Positions 22,078 through 28,714 of a stretch of 64,000 nt of DNA are shown here, in pieces; the first letter of the stretch is position 1; each line of letters begins with the position of its first letter. Source of the DNA: Burkholderiaceae bacterium. GTDB taxonomy: Bacteria > Pseudomonadota > Gammaproteobacteria > Burkholderiales > Burkholderiaceae_B. The stretch lies in contig JAMNXR010000001.1 in the NCBI GenBank assembly GCA_023653055.1, positions 186,001-250,000 on the forward strand. Direction: 5' to 3'. The notes under the pieces were generated by a model. It was not told where the DNA came from. It worked only from the letters and a program-made list of their open reading frames with translations, and made no database searches. The position numbers were made by a program, and so were the translations under genes.

Positions 22078-22233
22078 GTCTGTCTCTCTGACATAGGTTT
22101 TTAGGCAGGCGTCAGTATAGGCAAAGTTTTTCTATTTTTTCAGTGAGCCTGATGCTGGGTGGGGATTCGGGGCTGGATGCTTTAAAGTATGGATTGTTGA
22201 TCTAATTCGATTTGATTTGAAAAGAGGTGAGTG

Positions 22234-22812
22234 ATGTCGTTTTGCACCGCGTGTGGCACTAAAAACCCAGCAGATGCTCGCTTCTGTCGTGCCTGTGGGC
22301 ACGCAATGGAGGTACCGAGTGACACGTTGTCGGTTACACCGAGCACGCCTGTCGCCTCTCCGCCACCAGAAGCACCTAAGGTCACCGCGCCTCCGATCCC
22401 AGATGCCGCACCCGTCAAGCTCAAGGCTTTTGACAATCCAGCTGAGCTCTGGAAAATGTATTTTTACGTCTCTTTTTTCAATATCGGGGCGTATTTTCTG
22501 ACAAATTCAGCGGTAGAGTTTCTGGAGGACAGCGGTGGCTTTCTCAGTATTCCGATGGGCTTATTTGTGCTGTTTATATCAGCGTTCATGGGGTTCGCGT
22601 ATTGGTTGATTAAAAAGCAAGCCGTGGATAAGGGTCGGACACTTTGGCTCCTACCCTTGATTGCGTGGCAAGTGTATGCCTATCTTGACGGGCTCTCAGG
22701 TTTTGATCCCGGCGTTGCCGAGTCAAGCTTTGATTACTACGATGCGTATCTCTCAGGGATCCCGGAGACGATTATTTTGATCAGACTGTTTCTTGCGCTG
22801 CGTGAACGCTAA
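22234..22812 (+). CDS. Zinc-ribbon membrane protein
   Basis: Protein of 192 residues. The N-terminal zinc ribbon has four cysteines (CTACGTK at 4-7 and CRACGH about 12 residues later), then a Pro/Thr/Ser-rich linker (residues 25-65), then about three hydrophobic helices in residues 85-185. ATG 22234 has GAGGTG close upstream. No enzymatic motif is visible. Proteins with a DZR ribbon followed by membrane helices are common and mostly uncharacterised. The stop overlaps the convergent lysE-type gene by 4 bases. Confidence 0.75.
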   Translation: MSFCTACGTKNPADARFCRACGHAMEVPSDTLSVTPSTPVASPPPEAPKVTAPPIPDAAPVKLKAFDNPAELWKMYFYVSFFNIGAYFLTNSAVEFLEDSGGFLSIPMGLFVLFISAFMGFAYWLIKKQAVDKGRTLWLLPLIAWQVYAYLDGLSGFDPGVAESSFDYYDAYLSGIPETIILIRLFLALRER

Positions 22813-23411
22813 GTTAACAATACCGGCACCATCGATAGAATCAGTAATAGTGCCATGACTCTATTAAAAATCTGTCGCTGTTGCGGCTTGGAGAGTACGC
22901 GTTCGAGTCGGGTGCCCAGTAAGACCCACAAACTTAGGCAAGGCAAGTTGATCGCGGTAAACATCAAACAGGTCGCAAAAATAAATGTATTGGACGCATC
23001 GATCGGCATGTAATTACTAAAGTAGGTAATCGCCATCAGTAGCGCTTTTGGGTTGACCCATTGAAACAGGGCGGCGCCAATAAATCCTAGCGGCTGGCCT
23101 TTTGTTTCACCACGCTTTAGCGGTGTCTGATTAAAGGCGATTCGCCAAGCCAGATAAAGCAAGTAGCAAAACCCCACTACTTTCATGATCTGATAGCCAA
23201 TCGGAAAGACTCGAAAAAGTTGGTCAAGACCGGCACCAATCGCGAGTAGCATCACCAGGTGTCCCGACGAAATCCCCAGCATGTGTGGAATCGTACGTGG
23301 AAAGCCGAAATTGACGCCCGAGCTGAGCAACATCATGTTGTTTGGGCCGGGTGTGATGGAGGAGGCGAAGGCAAACATCGCCATCGCCATCACTATTTGC
23401 CAATCAATCAT
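22809..23411 (-). CDS. LysE/RhtB family amino-acid exporter
   Basis: Inner-membrane exporter of 200 residues with six predicted helices. The N-terminal SITPGPNNMMLLSSG (near residue 18) is the family motif; the WVNPKALLMAITYF segment is near 115. It overlaps the upstream pdxA-like gene by 4 bases (ATGA), so it is in that operon and under the same LysR-type promoter. That suggests export of a product or analogue tied to the pathway; the substrate is unknown. Confidence 0.88.
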   Translation of the reverse strand: MIDWQIVMAMAMFAFASSITPGPNNMMLLSSGVNFGFPRTIPHMLGISSGHLVMLLAIGAGLDQLFRVFPIGYQIMKVVGFCYLLYLAWRIAFNQTPLKRGETKGQPLGFIGAALFQWVNPKALLMAITYFSNYMPIDASNTFIFATCLMFTAINLPCLSLWVLLGTRLERVLSKPQQRQIFNRVMALLLILSMVPVLLT

Positions 23412-24433
23412 TGGCGCCAGGCTTTACCCATGCGCGCCGCAATCTGAAAGGCTTGCCAGGTTGCTTCAACGCTGGCCTGACCTTTGCCAGCGATATCGTA
23501 GGCGGTACCGTGTGCGGGTGTGGTGATCGGGATTGGCAGACCACCTTGAACGGTAACGCCTCTTGAAAAGCCGAGTAGCTTGATCGCGATTTGTCCTTGG
23601 TCGTGATACATGGTGACGATCGCCTGATACTCGCCCGCCTGGGCTTTTAAGAAAATCGTATCCGCCGGGAAGGGGCCGTGGAAGGGCGTGTCGGTTGGCC
23701 AGTGTTTCGCCTGAAGTGAGGCGACCGCAGGCGCGATGATGTCTATTTCTTCGCGACCGCAAGAGCCGCCATCTCCGCCATGTGGATTGAATGCTGCAAT
23801 CGCGATCTTGGGTGTTTCAAAGCCGCTCGCAAGCAGTGCCTTGTAGATGAGCTCCGAAGCTTGCTCGATGCGCTCTTTGCTCAGGTACTGGGCGACATCC
23901 TTGAGAGGGACATGTGAGGAGATGCGTGAGGTCCAAAGATTGCCGAGCGTATTGAACTCACAGAAATAACCCGTCACACCTAAGTGTTCGGCAAAGTGAT
24001 GCAGTTCGTCTTCGTGCTGCATGCCACCCATTTTCATGGCTTGCTTATTTAGGGGTGCAAAGCAGATCGCATCGACATGTCCTGCCAGGGTGGCGTCCAT
24101 GCAGGCATCCAATATTTTTAAAACAGACCGACCGTTTAACGCGCTCACCTGACTAACGGTGACGTCCTGTGGATCAATCGACTGAAGCGTTAAAAAGGCG
24201 GGTAAATGTTGCTCGGGACGATGGCGGACGTTCTCAAAAGAATCGACCTTCGTAGTAGGCACGGTGACATTTGCAATTTTTTGGCCCTGCTCCCATAGCC
24301 AGCGGTCACCGGCAATCACGACATTCGCTGATGCGCAGACAGGATGCTGCGCAAGCAAGCGAGCGATCAGTTCGGGACCGATGCCAGAAGGATCGCCGAG
24401 CGTCAGGACGACAACGGGAAGGTCGTTTTGCAT
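23408..24433 (-). CDS. PdxA-family dehydrogenase (PdxA2-like paralogue)
   Basis: NAD-dependent metal enzyme of 341 residues in the 4-hydroxythreonine-4-phosphate dehydrogenase family. TLGDPSGIGPELIAR at 11-25, metal-binding His residues in LHHFAEHLG, SSHVPL and MYHDQGQ, and NPHGGDGG near 245. APLNKQAMKMGG in place of the APVHK seen in true PdxA points to the PdxA2 branch, whose known members act in acid-sugar catabolism (for example D-threonate or D-erythronate phosphate). No DUF1537 kinase is near. It is the first gene of an operon with the LysE exporter and is divergent from the LysR gene; its promoter shares an operator with the bug operon. Confidence 0.85.
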   Translation of the reverse strand: MQNDLPVVVLTLGDPSGIGPELIARLLAQHPVCASANVVIAGDRWLWEQGQKIANVTVPTTKVDSFENVRHRPEQHLPAFLTLQSIDPQDVTVSQVSALNGRSVLKILDACMDATLAGHVDAICFAPLNKQAMKMGGMQHEDELHHFAEHLGVTGYFCEFNTLGNLWTSRISSHVPLKDVAQYLSKERIEQASELIYKALLASGFETPKIAIAAFNPHGGDGGSCGREEIDIIAPAVASLQAKHWPTDTPFHGPFPADTIFLKAQAGEYQAIVTMYHDQGQIAIKLLGFSRGVTVQGGLPIPITTPAHGTAYDIAGKGQASVEATWQAFQIAARMGKAWRQ

Positions 24434-24460
24434 GTGTATCTCTTTTGCTTGGATCCACCT

Positions 24461-24525
24461 ATTCTAGGTAATAAATCAATTCCAGTAAAATGAAACTTGA
24501 TCATTGATTGATATCTAAAAGTTAT
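24461..24525 (-). promoter_or_regulatory. pdxA promoter with LysR-type operator (copy A)
   Basis: Read on the minus strand: dyad at 24511-24525 (ATATC-taaaa-GTTAT on the plus strand, a T-N11-A site), -35 TTACTG at 24483-24488, a 16-base spacer and -10 TAGAAT at 24461-24466. The implied start is near 24454, so the dyad centre is near -64, the standard LysR recognition-site position. Positions 24485-24525 match 28674-28714 at 34 of 41 bases without a gap. The dyad also lies 23-37 bases before the LysR start, allowing autoregulation. Confidence 0.75.
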
Positions 24526-24547
24526 CATTAAAAATGAATGTCCTCTT

Positions 24548-25483
24548 ATGACAAACTACTCCCATACCTTATTAAATCGACTGCGAATGCGACAGGTATC
24601 GCTCTTGTTGAGCATTCAAGAGCACCGGACATTACGTGCGGCCGCCCACGTGATGGGGATGACTCAGCCCGCCGCCACCAAAATGTTGCATGAGCTTGAG
24701 GATGCGTTAGGCACAAAGATTTTTGACCGTACGGGTAGAACTCTGACCTTGAATCTCGCAGGCAAGACTGTTCTTGGCTTCTTTCAGGGTTTGCGCGGGA
24801 GTCTAGAGTCTCTGGCGCGCGAACTCGACGCTATGCACACGGGTATTCATGGATCGCTATCGATCGGTAGCATTATGGCGGCTTCGCCTGCGATCTTGAC
24901 GGATGCCTTGATTGCCATGCGTCGATCCTACCCGATGTTATCGATCAATATTTCAACGGGGACGAGCGATGTGTTGATTGAGGCGCTCAACCAAGGCGAT
25001 TTAGATTTAGTGATTGGCCGTATCGTCAGTGTCAAAAATGAGGATTACGCGTTTCGACCTATTGCCAATGAAGTGTTATCTGTCGTGGGGGCCGCCAATC
25101 ATCCACTGGCTGGAAAGTCCAGGGTCACGCTAGAGAGCCTACACAAGTACCCCTGGATTCTCCAAGGGCCTGGCAGTCCAATGCGTGCAGTGATCGAGCG
25201 TGAGTTTCGTGATCAGCACTTGGCTTTGCCGACTAATTTGATCGAGACGTCCTCCATCCTGACGACCGCAGATATCGTGACGCGGACAGATATGATTGCT
25301 GTCATTCCTGAGTCTGTCGCGGCGATTTTTGCCGATAGCGGTCGCATCAAGGTGCTGCGCTATCGGATCAAGAACACGCTCGATCCTTATGGCAGCTTAA
25401 TTAAGCGGGATCGGCCAAGTTCGCCAGCAACACAAGCGTTTTTAACGATGCTACATCCTCAGGACTCAGTGCTTGAAGCGTGA
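24548..25483 (+). CDS. LysR-family transcriptional regulator
   Basis: Regulator of 311 residues. N-terminal winged helix: LRAAAHVMGMTQPAATKMLHEL near 30-50 followed by FDRTGRTLTLN; the C-terminal periplasmic-binding-like effector domain runs from about residue 95 (GSLSIGSIMAA) to the end. It is divergent from the pdxA-like operon and convergent with the kdaD-rhmD-bug operon. The two operons share a promoter/operator block, so this protein is the best candidate to control both. In Burkholderiales, LysR genes beside Bug receptors often sense an organic or sugar acid. Confidence 0.9.
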   Translation: MTNYSHTLLNRLRMRQVSLLLSIQEHRTLRAAAHVMGMTQPAATKMLHELEDALGTKIFDRTGRTLTLNLAGKTVLGFFQGLRGSLESLARELDAMHTGIHGSLSIGSIMAASPAILTDALIAMRRSYPMLSINISTGTSDVLIEALNQGDLDLVIGRIVSVKNEDYAFRPIANEVLSVVGAANHPLAGKSRVTLESLHKYPWILQGPGSPMRAVIEREFRDQHLALPTNLIETSSILTTADIVTRTDMIAVIPESVAAIFADSGRIKVLRYRIKNTLDPYGSLIKRDRPSSPATQAFLTMLHPQDSVLEA

Positions 25484-25518
25484 CAAAAGCTGAGTCTTGC
25501 AGCTGGACCCGCCGTGGC

Positions 25519-26442
25519 TTATTTGCCCCAGCGAAAGACCATGGGGTCGAGTCGTTTTGCCGTTTCAATCAAGCCATTGCGGACCACAGGATGCATGGCA
25601 GGGAAGGGGTGACGCGAAACCTCGGCGTCGATGATGCCACCCGCTTTCATGAGTGCTTTGGCTGACAAAATGCCGCCTTGGCGATTTTCGTAATTGATCA
25701 AGGGCAACCAGCGTGTGTACGCATCGATCGCTTGCTCACGCTTGCCAGCAAACCAGGGATCCATGATTTGACGGATACCATCTGGGTAGCCCCCACCTGT
25801 CATGGCGCCTGTGCAACCTGCTTCGAGATCGGGCAGCAGTGTGATGGCTTCTTCACCATCCCACGGCCCTTCGATTGCCGCACCACCGAGTTTGATGAGC
25901 TCACGCAACTTACTGGCTGCACCGGCAGTCTCAATTTTGAAATAAGAAACATTAGCGATTTCGGTCGCCATCTTTGCTAAGAACGCGGCGGGCAGGGTCG
26001 TGCCGCTGACAGGCGCATCTTGAATCATGATGGGGATGTCAATTGCATCAGAAACCTTTGCAAAAAATTCGTAAATGTTTTGCTCTGGTACGCGAATTGT
26101 TGCGCCGTGGTACGGCGGCATTACCATCACCATTGAAGCACCCAGATCTTGCGCGCGTTTGCTGCGTTGTGCACAAATCAGTGAGCCGTAGTGTGTCGTC
26201 GTGACGATGACAGGTACGCGCCCTGCGACGTGCTCAAGAATCTCTCGGGTCAGGAGGTCACGCTCATCATCAGAGATAGAAAACTGTTCGGAGAAGTTTG
26301 CCAGGATGCACAAACCTTGGGAGCCCGCATCAATCATGAAATCGACACAGCGCTTTTGACTGGGTAGATCCAGTTCGCCAGACGCTTTGAAGATCGTCGG
26401 AACAACGGGAAATACGCCTTGATATCTAGGGTGTGCCGCCAT
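25519..26442 (-). CDS. 2-keto-3-deoxy-L-pentonate dehydratase-like DHDPS-family enzyme
   Basis: TIM-barrel class I lyase of 307 residues (DapA superfamily). GVFPVVPTIF at 9-18, GLCILANFSEQF near 43-54 and the Schiff-base Lys in YFKIETAGAASKL near 170 are very close, from memory, to Azospirillum L-2-keto-3-deoxyarabonate dehydratase, which makes 2-oxoglutarate semialdehyde. PWDGEEAITLL and TGAMTGGGYPDG also fit that enzyme. The gene begins 3 bases after the rhamnonate dehydratase-like gene and ends the bug operon. Aldolase activity on a related 2-keto-3-deoxy acid is the alternative. Confidence 0.82.
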   Translation of the reverse strand: MAAHPRYQGVFPVVPTIFKASGELDLPSQKRCVDFMIDAGSQGLCILANFSEQFSISDDERDLLTREILEHVAGRVPVIVTTTHYGSLICAQRSKRAQDLGASMVMVMPPYHGATIRVPEQNIYEFFAKVSDAIDIPIMIQDAPVSGTTLPAAFLAKMATEIANVSYFKIETAGAASKLRELIKLGGAAIEGPWDGEEAITLLPDLEAGCTGAMTGGGYPDGIRQIMDPWFAGKREQAIDAYTRWLPLINYENRQGGILSAKALMKAGGIIDAEVSRHPFPAMHPVVRNGLIETAKRLDPMVFRWGK

Positions 26443-26445
26443 GAT

Positions 26446-27618
26446 TTACTCGATGATGTTGAAGTCTTTGAGAAACTCGGTCTTCAGTGTGAGTCCGAGC
26501 CCAGGAATGTTGTCGTCAAGCTGGATAAAACCATCTTTGGCAACAGGTTCACCATCAAAGATGTAATAGAACAGTTCGTTACCGACTTCGACGTCGAACA
26601 TTGGAAAGTACTCACTCATTGGCGAGGCGAGTGTGCTCATCGTCAGATGATAGTTATGCATCTGACCGGCATGAGGAATCACCGGAACGCTATAAGCTTC
26701 GCAGAGCGCATTGATTTTATGTGCAGCAGTAATACCACCGACGCGGTTCGTGTCGTATTGCACAACAGAGACAGCTTTGCGATCGAGTAGTTGCTTGAAG
26801 CCGTAGAGAGAAAACTCATGTTCTCCCCCTGAAATCGGGATGCTGGTCAGTTGATTGAGCTCAGCGTAGCCATCGATATCATCAGCGATGACCGGTTCTT
26901 CTAGCCAACGTGGCGCATATTTTTCCAGCTTGGGCAGCATGCGTTTTGCGTATTCCAGGTTCCAGCCCATGTAACACTCAAGCATGAGGTCCGTATCGTC
27001 ACCGATGACTTCGCGGACAGCGGCAACGGATTTGAGGTTTTCGACTACACCTAGTTGCAGGTGTGCAGGACCGTAGCCAAAGCGCATTTTGAAGGCTTTG
27101 AATCCTTGGTCAAGAAAGGTTTGCGCTTCCTTTTGCATTTCATTTAAGTCGGTGCGGTAGAGCTTGGAGTAGTAGCAGGGGATTTTTTCTTTGGTGCGAC
27201 CGCCGAGCAATTTAAAGACCGGCTTATTGACGCTTTTGCCAAGGATGTCCCAGATAGCGAGGTCGATGGCAGAGATCGCCGCCATGGTGACGCCTTTGCG
27301 ACCCCAGGCATGTGTACCGCGATACATTTTTTGCCATAGGTATTCATAATCCCAAGGGTCTTCGCCAATCACCATGGCCGCGAGATATTCATCGATGATG
27401 GCTTTGGCAATCTTGGGCGCGAGTGCGACGTTACCGAGACCGACAATTCCGTTGTCGGTCTCGATTTCGACCACCGTCCACGAATGGAAACGGAAGGTAC
27501 TCATGGTTTCATTTTTTGAGTACACCAAGTCCATGGCGTTTGAGCAAAAGTTACCCTGAGGTGGGACGGTTTTTCCCTTCCATTCAAACACGCGGGCGCG
27601 GACGGCTTTGATCTTCAT
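26446..27618 (-). CDS. rhmD: L-rhamnonate dehydratase-like enolase-superfamily enzyme
   Basis: Mg-dependent sugar-acid dehydratase of 390 residues, mandelate racemase subgroup. Motifs shared with the RhmD family: [12 protein letters not shown] near 85, [12 protein letters not shown], acidic metal-ligand candidates in LECYMGW, WLEEPV and SGGEHEF, and the catalytic His region [10 protein letters not shown] near 320. RhmD-type enzymes accept L-rhamnonate and also L-mannonate, L-lyxonate and D-gulonate. Together with a keto-deoxy-pentonate dehydratase next door, L-lyxonate is an attractive substrate, but that is inference. AGGAAGTG precedes the ATG. It lies between bug and the kdaD-like gene. Confidence 0.85.
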
Positions 27619-27648
27619 AAATACACTTCCTGTGCAGCTTTTTAAAAA

Positions 27649-28611
27649 TTAATTGACTTTAATGTTGTTCTTTTTGATCACGTCGGCATAGCGTTTGTTT
27701 TCAGAATCGTGAAACGCTTTGAATTGTGCTTGTGTCATAGGCTGAATCGTTGCGCCGATGGTTTCAAGACGTTTGGCGGTGTCGGGCATGTTGAGCACTT
27801 TATTCACATCCGTATTGACTTTGTTGATCACCGCGGCAGGTGTATTGGCGGGCATATAGACGCCATACCAGGCACTCATCACCAAGGGGACGCCTGCTTC
27901 TTTCATCGTGGGTGTGTCGGGCAGTTGTGGGTTGCGTGCGTCGCTCGCAACACCGAGTGCTTTGAGTTTGCCCCCACGGATCTGAGGCAATGCTGAGGAC
28001 ATGGTTTCGAAAGCGTATTGAACCTGTCCGGCGATCAGGTCAACCATGGCAGGACTGCTGCCTTTGTAAGGAACGTGAACGGCATTGACGCCAGCCAGAT
28101 CTTTAAAGAGTTCGGCCGCGATATGTTGTGTGCTGCCTGCACCGCTCGAAGCAAAGTTCAGTTGACCGGGTTTGCTCTTGAGCAGTTTAACGAGGTCTTG
28201 CACGCTGTTCACGGGACTATTGGCTGCGACAACGAGTACGTTAGGCACGGAGCCGGTAAAAGCCACGGGGATCAGATCTTTTGCGTTGTCGTAGTTGAGC
28301 TTGAGCAGATGCGGTGCGATGGCTTGCGCGGTGGACACGCCCATCAACATGGTTTGGCCATCCGTTGATTTGGCCGTCACGTCAGCCGCAAGAGTGTTTG
28401 AAGCGCCGGGCCTGTTTTCGACCACCACGGTTTGGCCCCACATCGGTGTGAGTTTGTCCGCTACGGCTCGGGCCATCTGATCTGTACCACCGCCGGGCGA
28501 GGCGCCGACGAGTAATTTAACGGGCTTTGTTGGCCAGTCTTGTGCCAAGGTCGGGGCGCTAAGCGATACGGTGAGGCCAAACAACAACGCATTGATAAGT
28601 TTTATTTTCAT
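27649..28611 (-). CDS. Bug-family (TctC-like) tripartite tricarboxylate transporter receptor
   Basis: Periplasmic substrate-binding protein of 320 residues. A signal peptide ends near APTLAQ (residue 24). The Bug hallmarks are WPTKPVKLLVGASPGGGTDQMARAV and VVENRPGASNTLAA. Such receptors bind organic acids, with carboxylate contacts through the loop residues; many Burkholderiales copies are orphans without tctA and tctB nearby, as here. It is the first gene of the operon bug-rhmD-kdaD, so it may deliver or sense the sugar acid that the two enzymes use. The ribosome site GGAG is inside a hairpin (see separate entry). Confidence 0.92.
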   Translation of the reverse strand: MKIKLINALLFGLTVSLSAPTLAQDWPTKPVKLLVGASPGGGTDQMARAVADKLTPMWGQTVVVENRPGASNTLAADVTAKSTDGQTMLMGVSTAQAIAPHLLKLNYDNAKDLIPVAFTGSVPNVLVVAANSPVNSVQDLVKLLKSKPGQLNFASSGAGSTQHIAAELFKDLAGVNAVHVPYKGSSPAMVDLIAGQVQYAFETMSSALPQIRGGKLKALGVASDARNPQLPDTPTMKEAGVPLVMSAWYGVYMPANTPAAVINKVNTDVNKVLNMPDTAKRLETIGATIQPMTQAQFKAFHDSENKRYADVIKKNNIKVN

Positions 28612-28648
28612 GGGGGGTCTCCAGATTCCGTTATTGGACGAACCCCCA
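28612..28648 (-). promoter_or_regulatory. 5'-terminal hairpin covering the bug ribosome-binding site
   Basis: On the minus strand the leader reads GGGGGTTCGTCC, then a 13-base loop, then GGAGACCCCCC directly before the ATG. GGGGGT pairs with ACCCCC and UCC with GGA, which would hide the GGAG site. The predicted transcript start (near 28643) is at the first G of this stem, so the hairpin would be the very 5' end of the mRNA. Confidence 0.5.
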
Positions 28649-28649
28649 C

Positions 28650-28714
28650 ATACTAGAAGTTGAATTGATTCACGTAAAATGAAATTTAATGATGAATTGA
28701 TAACTAAAGGTTAT
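28650..28714 (-). promoter_or_regulatory. bug operon promoter with LysR-type operator (copy B)
   Basis: Minus-strand promoter: dyad ATAAC-taaag-GTTAT at 28700-28714 (T-N11-A), -35 TTACGT at 28672-28677, 16-base spacer and -10 TAGTAT at 28650-28655. The dyad centre is near -64 from the implied start at about 28643. The arrangement is base-for-base equal in spacing to the pdxA promoter at 24461-24525, with 34/41 identity across 28674-28714. The dyad here is more perfect than in copy A. Confidence 0.75.

Follow-up and report, generated by a model that had tools for sequence, protein, structure and literature searches.

Introduction

LysR-type transcriptional regulators (LTTRs) are described, in the section of PMC8407307 that sets out the standard model, as using a recognition site near -65 and activation sites at -35 and -10 of the promoters they control. 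For divergent promoters, the corresponding parts of PMC8407307 and PMC5002191 place the recognition site near -65 and the activation site near -35. The sites of PcaQ-type LTTRs, as quoted in the relevant part of PMC3557286, read ATAACC-N4-GGTTAT in Sinorhizobium meliloti and ATTGCCTGGGGTTAT for PA2206 of Pseudomonas aeruginosa. Here we examine an LTTR locus in a 64,000-nucleotide stretch of a Burkholderiaceae bacterium (contig JAMNXR010000001.1, positions 186,001 to 250,000; hereafter the window), where at 22.8-28.7 kb two minus-strand operons lie on either side of one plus-strand lysR gene and each is preceded by a copy of the same block. The window genome (2.84 Mb) belongs to the genus Zwartia, whose members are placed in the freshwater cluster of the Alcaligenaceae in the portion of PMC10535154 that treats them; among named relatives, Z. 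panacis and Z. vadi come closest at this locus.

The original prediction, made from the letters of the window, held that the two blocks define a two-operon LysR regulon. The gene arrangement is as described there: lysR (24548-25483) sits between an operon at 22809-24433, which begins with a pdxA-like gene, and an operon at 25519-28611, which begins with the solute-binding protein gene bug. Our analysis lends support to the regulon through a phylogenetic footprint, the co-occurrence of block and cluster in the genus, co-variation of LysR with its half-sites, and relatives that have a single operon. Judged from sequence, the blocks are most probably (about 85%) copies of one LysR-type operator joined to a sigma-70-type promoter, and the two operons would form a LysR-activated regulon that arose when one operon split.

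Results

The same block precedes both operons

Block 1 (24461-24525, minus strand) is a predicted operator/promoter that precedes the pdxA-like operon and is divergent from lysR; its counterpart, block 2 (28650-28714, minus strand), precedes bug. An ungapped identity of 34 in 41 bases had been claimed between 24485-24525 and 28674-28714, and it is found exactly there. The repeat is in fact longer, with 48 of 65 bases identical over the full blocks. When the two intergenic regions were subjected to 1000 dinucleotide shuffles, the best ungapped 41-base match had a mean of 22.2 and a maximum of 28, compared with the 34 observed. Elsewhere in the window neither block is matched at more than 23/41 bases, except that the bug block matches its reverse complement at 25/41. 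Block 1 is kept in five further Zwartia genomes and block 2 in four. Together, the shuffles and the conservation in relatives rule out chance similarity of the two blocks.

Taking TAGAAT and TAGTAT as the -10 boxes, both blocks contain a T-N11-A motif centred at -64, so that the operator-to-promoter spacing is equal, as originally proposed. In block 1 this motif is a candidate recognition site at 24512-24524 (centre 24518); in block 2 it lies at 28701-28713 (centre 28707), within ATAAC-N5-GTTAT. A second T-N11-A, overlooked in the original prediction, is centred at -43 in both blocks: at 24491-24503 in block 1 (centre 24497), where it is a candidate activation site, and at 28680-28692 in block 2 (centre 28686). 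The two motifs are 21 bp apart, or two helical turns, and like the promoter elements they are read on the minus strand.

The strings TTACTG and TTACGT, each 16 bases from TAGAAT or TAGTAT, are present as claimed, but they do not make the best promoter frame. Moving the -35 box one base upstream gives TTTACT on the pdxA side and TTTACG on the bug side with a 17-base spacer, and we prefer this reading because it is closer to the sigma-70 consensus. The predicted elements are thus TTTACT (24484-24489) with TAGAAT (24461-24466) in block 1 and TTTACG (28673-28678) with TAGTAT (28650-28655) in block 2, with transcription starts predicted near 24454 and 28643. A promoter scan returned TTTACT-17-TAGAAT on the pdxA side; the bug promoter was absent from its output, and the scan total was 5 sites, compared with 5.3 in shuffles. 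On the plus strand, a lysR promoter-like sequence, TTGATA-16-AAAAAT (24508-24535), overlaps the -64 box, as autorepression would predict; its scan site counts are at chance level.

Both boxes are conserved across Burkholderiales

For a phylogenetic footprint we used the best 80 of 242 named loci that encode a relative of this LysR; these 80 are mostly from Burkholderiales and include four from Zwartia. The block upstream of lysR was cut from each locus and anchored on the best core match, yielding 77 distinct blocks. It precedes the orthologous lysR in many Burkholderiales genera, with LysR identities of 49-56%. T-N11-A was found at -64 in 76 of the 77 distinct blocks and at -43 in all 77, the A of the -43 box falling inside the anchoring core and the T outside it. 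TANNNT occupied the -10 position in 73/77, while the next best column pair reached 51/77.

Many relatives (L136-L209, without a tally) also have AATCAAT in the spacer between -35 and -10, where the window has GAATTGATT and GAATCAATT. This heptamer could possibly be a third regulator contact near -10.

The block is specific to this cluster

A search of related genomes for the block, which had been suggested as a check, found it at this lysR and its cluster and, within the genus, nowhere else. With up to three mismatches, the block pattern occurred in 6 of 32 genus genomes, at 11 sites that all lie at the cluster, and the reversed control gave none. The gene for the enolase-superfamily enzyme is present in the same 6 of 32. 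One of the six (G017) has its two sites on separate contigs; in another (G024), where a contig ends within the bug gene, one block is visible. A seventh genus genome, G029, yielded a more distant LysR match (36% identity) and no block.

Within the window genome, the core plus -10 is perfect at these two sites only, with no site at one mismatch and four at two. Allowing up to three mismatches gave 55 sites compared with 46 in the reversed control, so places beyond the two perfect ones are indistinguishable from noise and were rejected. We likewise discarded a third genomic site, C15:6443, found with the ATAAC-type pattern at up to three mismatches: the reversed control gave the same number (1), and the site lacks the second box and the core.

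The family set comprised 268 genomes, 48 of them with this lysR at E <= 1e-60. The exact 16-base core was found in 34 of the 268 and in 33 of these lies before this lysR. Within one mismatch it was found in 55 genomes, of which 39 have this lysR and 16 do not, while the reversed 16-mer occurred in 7. All 16 genomes without this lysR were inspected, and none has a -64 box, a -10 box, or lysR or the operon alongside; three have a T-N11-A at -43, its A supplied by the core. In two of them, G110 and G111, a bug paralogue of 38-39% beside the core is all that shows. These two are from one genus and have the same core 16-mer before the paralogue, without a -64 box (L093:6974 and L094:6617, minus strand); this 16-mer may belong to another conserved element. 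In another genome (G120; L042:7950-9000), which keeps lysR without the operon, the block retains only part of the core and no -10, a state suggestive of decay.

LysR helix residues change with the half-sites

The regulator proposed to act on both blocks has 311 amino acids, with the N-terminal helix-turn-helix domain PF00126 and the C-terminal substrate domain PF03466 both scoring above cut-off, and is thus a member of the LysR family. Its best NCBIfam match is TF_pcaQ (TIGR02424), at 151.3 bits under a cut-off of 303.8, which does not qualify it as a PcaQ. Stops flagged in the lysR genes of G015 and G024 proved to be merely the normal gene end.

Among the 80 LysRs of the named loci, 20 have the helix residues N37/S41 and all 20 are accompanied by TCRC...GTGA half-sites, whereas none of the 60 with G37/P41 is. 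Going by their boxes, the N37/S41 proteins are those of the 20 Achromobacter loci, so the co-variation amounts to about one event. A genome of another genus (G203) has the same helix residues and a GTGA-type box. This pattern points to this LysR as the protein that reads this box.

One operon was probably divided in the Zwartia lineage

In 36 of the 48 family genomes with this lysR, the gene faces bug-pdxA-enolase-DHDPS across one block; two genomes with this layout (G039 and G215) have a block that deviates from the exact core. The divided layout occurs in 6 of the 48, all Zwartia, with the link in G017 inferred across two contigs, and the block stands before both operon parts in each of the five Zwartia genomes whose two promoters are readable. 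Elsewhere, bug is missing from first place in G114, and G120 has no operon genes except a distant bug paralogue. Among the named loci, 4/4 from Zwartia are divided and 0/76 others. Of those 76, 45 have bug-pdxA-enolase-DHDPS on one side of lysR, 25 have part of it and 6 have none, and in no case was an enolase, DHDPS or pdxA gene found behind lysR within the stretch examined.

In a LysR tree, the five Zwartia proteins group as a single clade (100/100) amid orthologues with the one-operon layout; the lysR of G017, cut by a contig end, was left out, and the place of the clade is not fixed, with bootstrap not fully settled. Given that most relatives have the one-operon layout and that the Zwartia LysRs form a single clade among such orthologues, the divided layout is best read as the derived state.

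The blocks themselves bear on the age of the duplication. In an unrooted block tree, the 11 Zwartia blocks separate jointly from the rest (90) and fall into two groups, the pdxA blocks (99) and the bug blocks (93); this comparison leaves out Bordetella L135 and Comamonadaceae L183. Block pairs from the same genome are 66.5% identical and pairs from different genomes 66.3%, giving no sign of ongoing gene conversion between the two blocks. Since the groups are separate and same-genome pairs are no more alike, the duplication is old: it predates the split of the sampled Zwartia species, and the copies evolve separately.

The content of the operon behind this operator has also changed within the genus. 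In G024 (L039:3559-9342), the lysR-side block precedes dctP, an amidohydrolase gene, dctQ, dctM, pdxA and another bug gene, so that the operator there, before a TRAP transporter set and an amidohydrolase, also precedes uptake genes.

Genes of the two operons and their surroundings

All operon genes are on the minus strand. The first operon begins with the pdxA-like dehydrogenase gene (23408-24433; PF04166), whose end overlaps by four bases a gene for a LysE-type exporter (22809-23411; PF01810). The name pdxA used in the original prediction is apt for the family (PdxA) and goes too far for the specific function: because the general PdxA model TIGR00557 scores 255.6 bits, under its cut-off of 290.35, the protein is placed in the PdxA family only and not assigned to vitamin B6 synthesis. 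A LysE-type gene also follows the pdxA-like gene in G004, G031, G015 and G017, and does not in G024. The second operon consists of bug, for a TctC-type solute-binding protein (27649-28611; PF03401), a gene for a dehydratase-like enzyme of the enolase superfamily, mandelate racemase group (26446-27618; PF13378/PF02746), and, last, a gene for a DHDPS-family lyase/aldolase (25519-26442; PF00701).

Solved relatives of the enolase-superfamily protein are 3stp, 3ssz and 3sqs, one of them named a putative galactonate dehydratase, and the nearest solved relative of the PdxA-family dehydrogenase is D-threonate 4-phosphate dehydrogenase. Going by these family names, the enzyme set suggests the breakdown of an acid imported via the Bug protein.

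At 22231-22812, a small protein with an N-terminal zinc ribbon is encoded convergently with the LysE-type gene, with a four-base overlap; its identity in three relatives (67-75%) is below that of the neighbouring genes. On the other side, cobA and the bug block are just 120 bases apart in the window. In Z. panacis this gap holds a toxin-antitoxin pair of the PrlF-YhaV type (L036:4067-4887; by Pfam), and G015 has such a pair as judged by similar reading frames only (L038:12095-12933).

Discussion

Several observations weigh against a two-operon LysR regulon with the history given above. Columns 40-50 of the footprint are partly set by the anchoring itself, and the half-site co-variation rests on one genus, Achromobacter. 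In nine of the 48 lysR genomes the core is missing even when one mismatch is allowed (several keep recognisable diverged blocks), four of the 48, all distant, have other layouts, and 6 of the 76 outside loci have lysR with none of the operon genes. In addition, 19 of the 76 outside loci, all among the 25 with part of the operon, together with G114, have pdxA beside lysR with no bug found between them. The ancestral first gene is less certain as a consequence, since this adjacency is not unique to Zwartia. The block tree is built on 70 AT-rich bases. Finally, beyond about 47-49 bases we found neither a lysR remnant next to the bug block nor a bug remnant next to the pdxA block.

Some of these points would fit operators of independent origin, with an old bug block and a pdxA block that was recruited or converged without any promoter duplication. 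Besides the adjacency of pdxA and lysR in some other genera, similarity between the blocks is gone outside about 47 bases, and each Zwartia set resembles the best outgroup (Delftia L187, 68-71%) roughly as closely as it does the other set (mean 70.5%). That mean nevertheless exceeds the 60% mean identity of the Zwartia sets to the outgroups, and the 11 Zwartia blocks split off together. Moreover, lysR and bug are neighbours across a single block in most family relatives, and in Zwartia the block now adjoins both, which is what duplication predicts. We therefore consider independent origin unlikely.

Less probable still is that LysR lies near the blocks by coincidence, with the blocks acting as operators for a different regulator or belonging to a general class of promoter. 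Sequence scans cannot see the protein, and the window genome has 17 candidate LysR-like places, only this one of which passed E 1e-40. Against this stand the restriction of the block, in the genus, to this lysR and cluster, the presence of this lysR at 33 of the 34 exact core matches in the family, and the joint change of LysR helix and half-sites. Lastly, it is very improbable that only the lysR-side block is a working operator and the bug copy a decaying remnant: the window bug block does have TCAATAACC where four relatives have TTGATATCC, but this change preserves ATAAC-N5-GTTAT as a perfect dyad, the bug blocks keep both boxes as well as the -35 and -10, and five of them average 89.6% identity among species, compared with 81.8% for six pdxA blocks.

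For the LysR regulon that we favour, the mechanism would be as follows. LysR would bind as a tetramer to the -64 and -43 boxes, and inducer binding to LysR would switch on the pdxA-lysE and bug-enolase-DHDPS operons. At the pdxA block, LysR would also cover its own promoter, which could result in autoregulation. Most likely, the ancestral arrangement was a single operon, bug-pdxA-enolase-DHDPS, that faced lysR across one block. The simplest explanation for division of this operon in the Zwartia lineage would be that lysR-block-operon was duplicated in tandem and the copies then lost complementary genes. This route would give the Zwartia gene order directly and, as each part kept a block, would leave both under one regulator; since no remnant genes were found, we infer it from the gene order. 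More tentatively, and at somewhat less than even odds, the locus may exemplify operon fission by tandem duplication and complementary loss that left parallel, diverging promoters, perhaps differently tuned (uptake, dehydration and cleavage on one side, the PdxA-like step and export on the other), in an acid-degrading pathway widespread in Burkholderiales.

In the open literature of PubMed Central, we found nothing joining LysR, PdxA, tripartite tricarboxylate and mandelate racemase genes and nothing on a split operon with LysR in Burkholderiales; by title, nothing on this system appeared under promoter or tandem duplication or under Burkholderia tricarboxylate-transport LysR regulons. For a LysR regulon that is present in many Burkholderiales and apparently uncharacterised, the locus yields an operator model sharp enough to be tested. 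With a history of the split that is clearly readable from relatives, it also offers a clean natural example of co-regulation outlasting the break-up of an operon, and the co-varying helix residues and half-sites make this regulator-operator pair usable for studies of LTTR specificity.

The kind of switch is ordinary, and an LTTR regulon of known kind in a lineage-specific two-operon form is a well-supported reading of these sequences. Like the divergent LTTR promoters described previously, the locus has, by sequence, T-N11-A at -64 and, adjacent to the -35, a second site at -43, and its pdxA block is divergent from lysR with a site overlapping a promoter-like sequence of lysR. Unlike them, Zwartia has the operator twice, one copy lying 3.2 kb from lysR before a non-divergent operon; this bug block is divergent from lysR in the one-operon relatives. 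The resemblance to PcaQ-type LTTRs includes the best NCBIfam match of this LysR and boxes of relatives such as GATTACCTGGGGTTATC (L147), which closely resemble the PA2206 site as quoted from its source. In contrast to PcaQ, this LysR scores half the PcaQ cut-off, and the targets here are bug and the PdxA-like, enolase-family and DHDPS-family genes rather than protocatechuate genes. Closest of all is the one-operon form of Achromobacter, Bordetella, Variovorax, Delftia and others, which has the same lysR, block and four genes; there they make up one operon with one block, whereas in Zwartia they are arranged as two operons with two blocks, with a LysE-type exporter gene after pdxA in 5/6 genomes.

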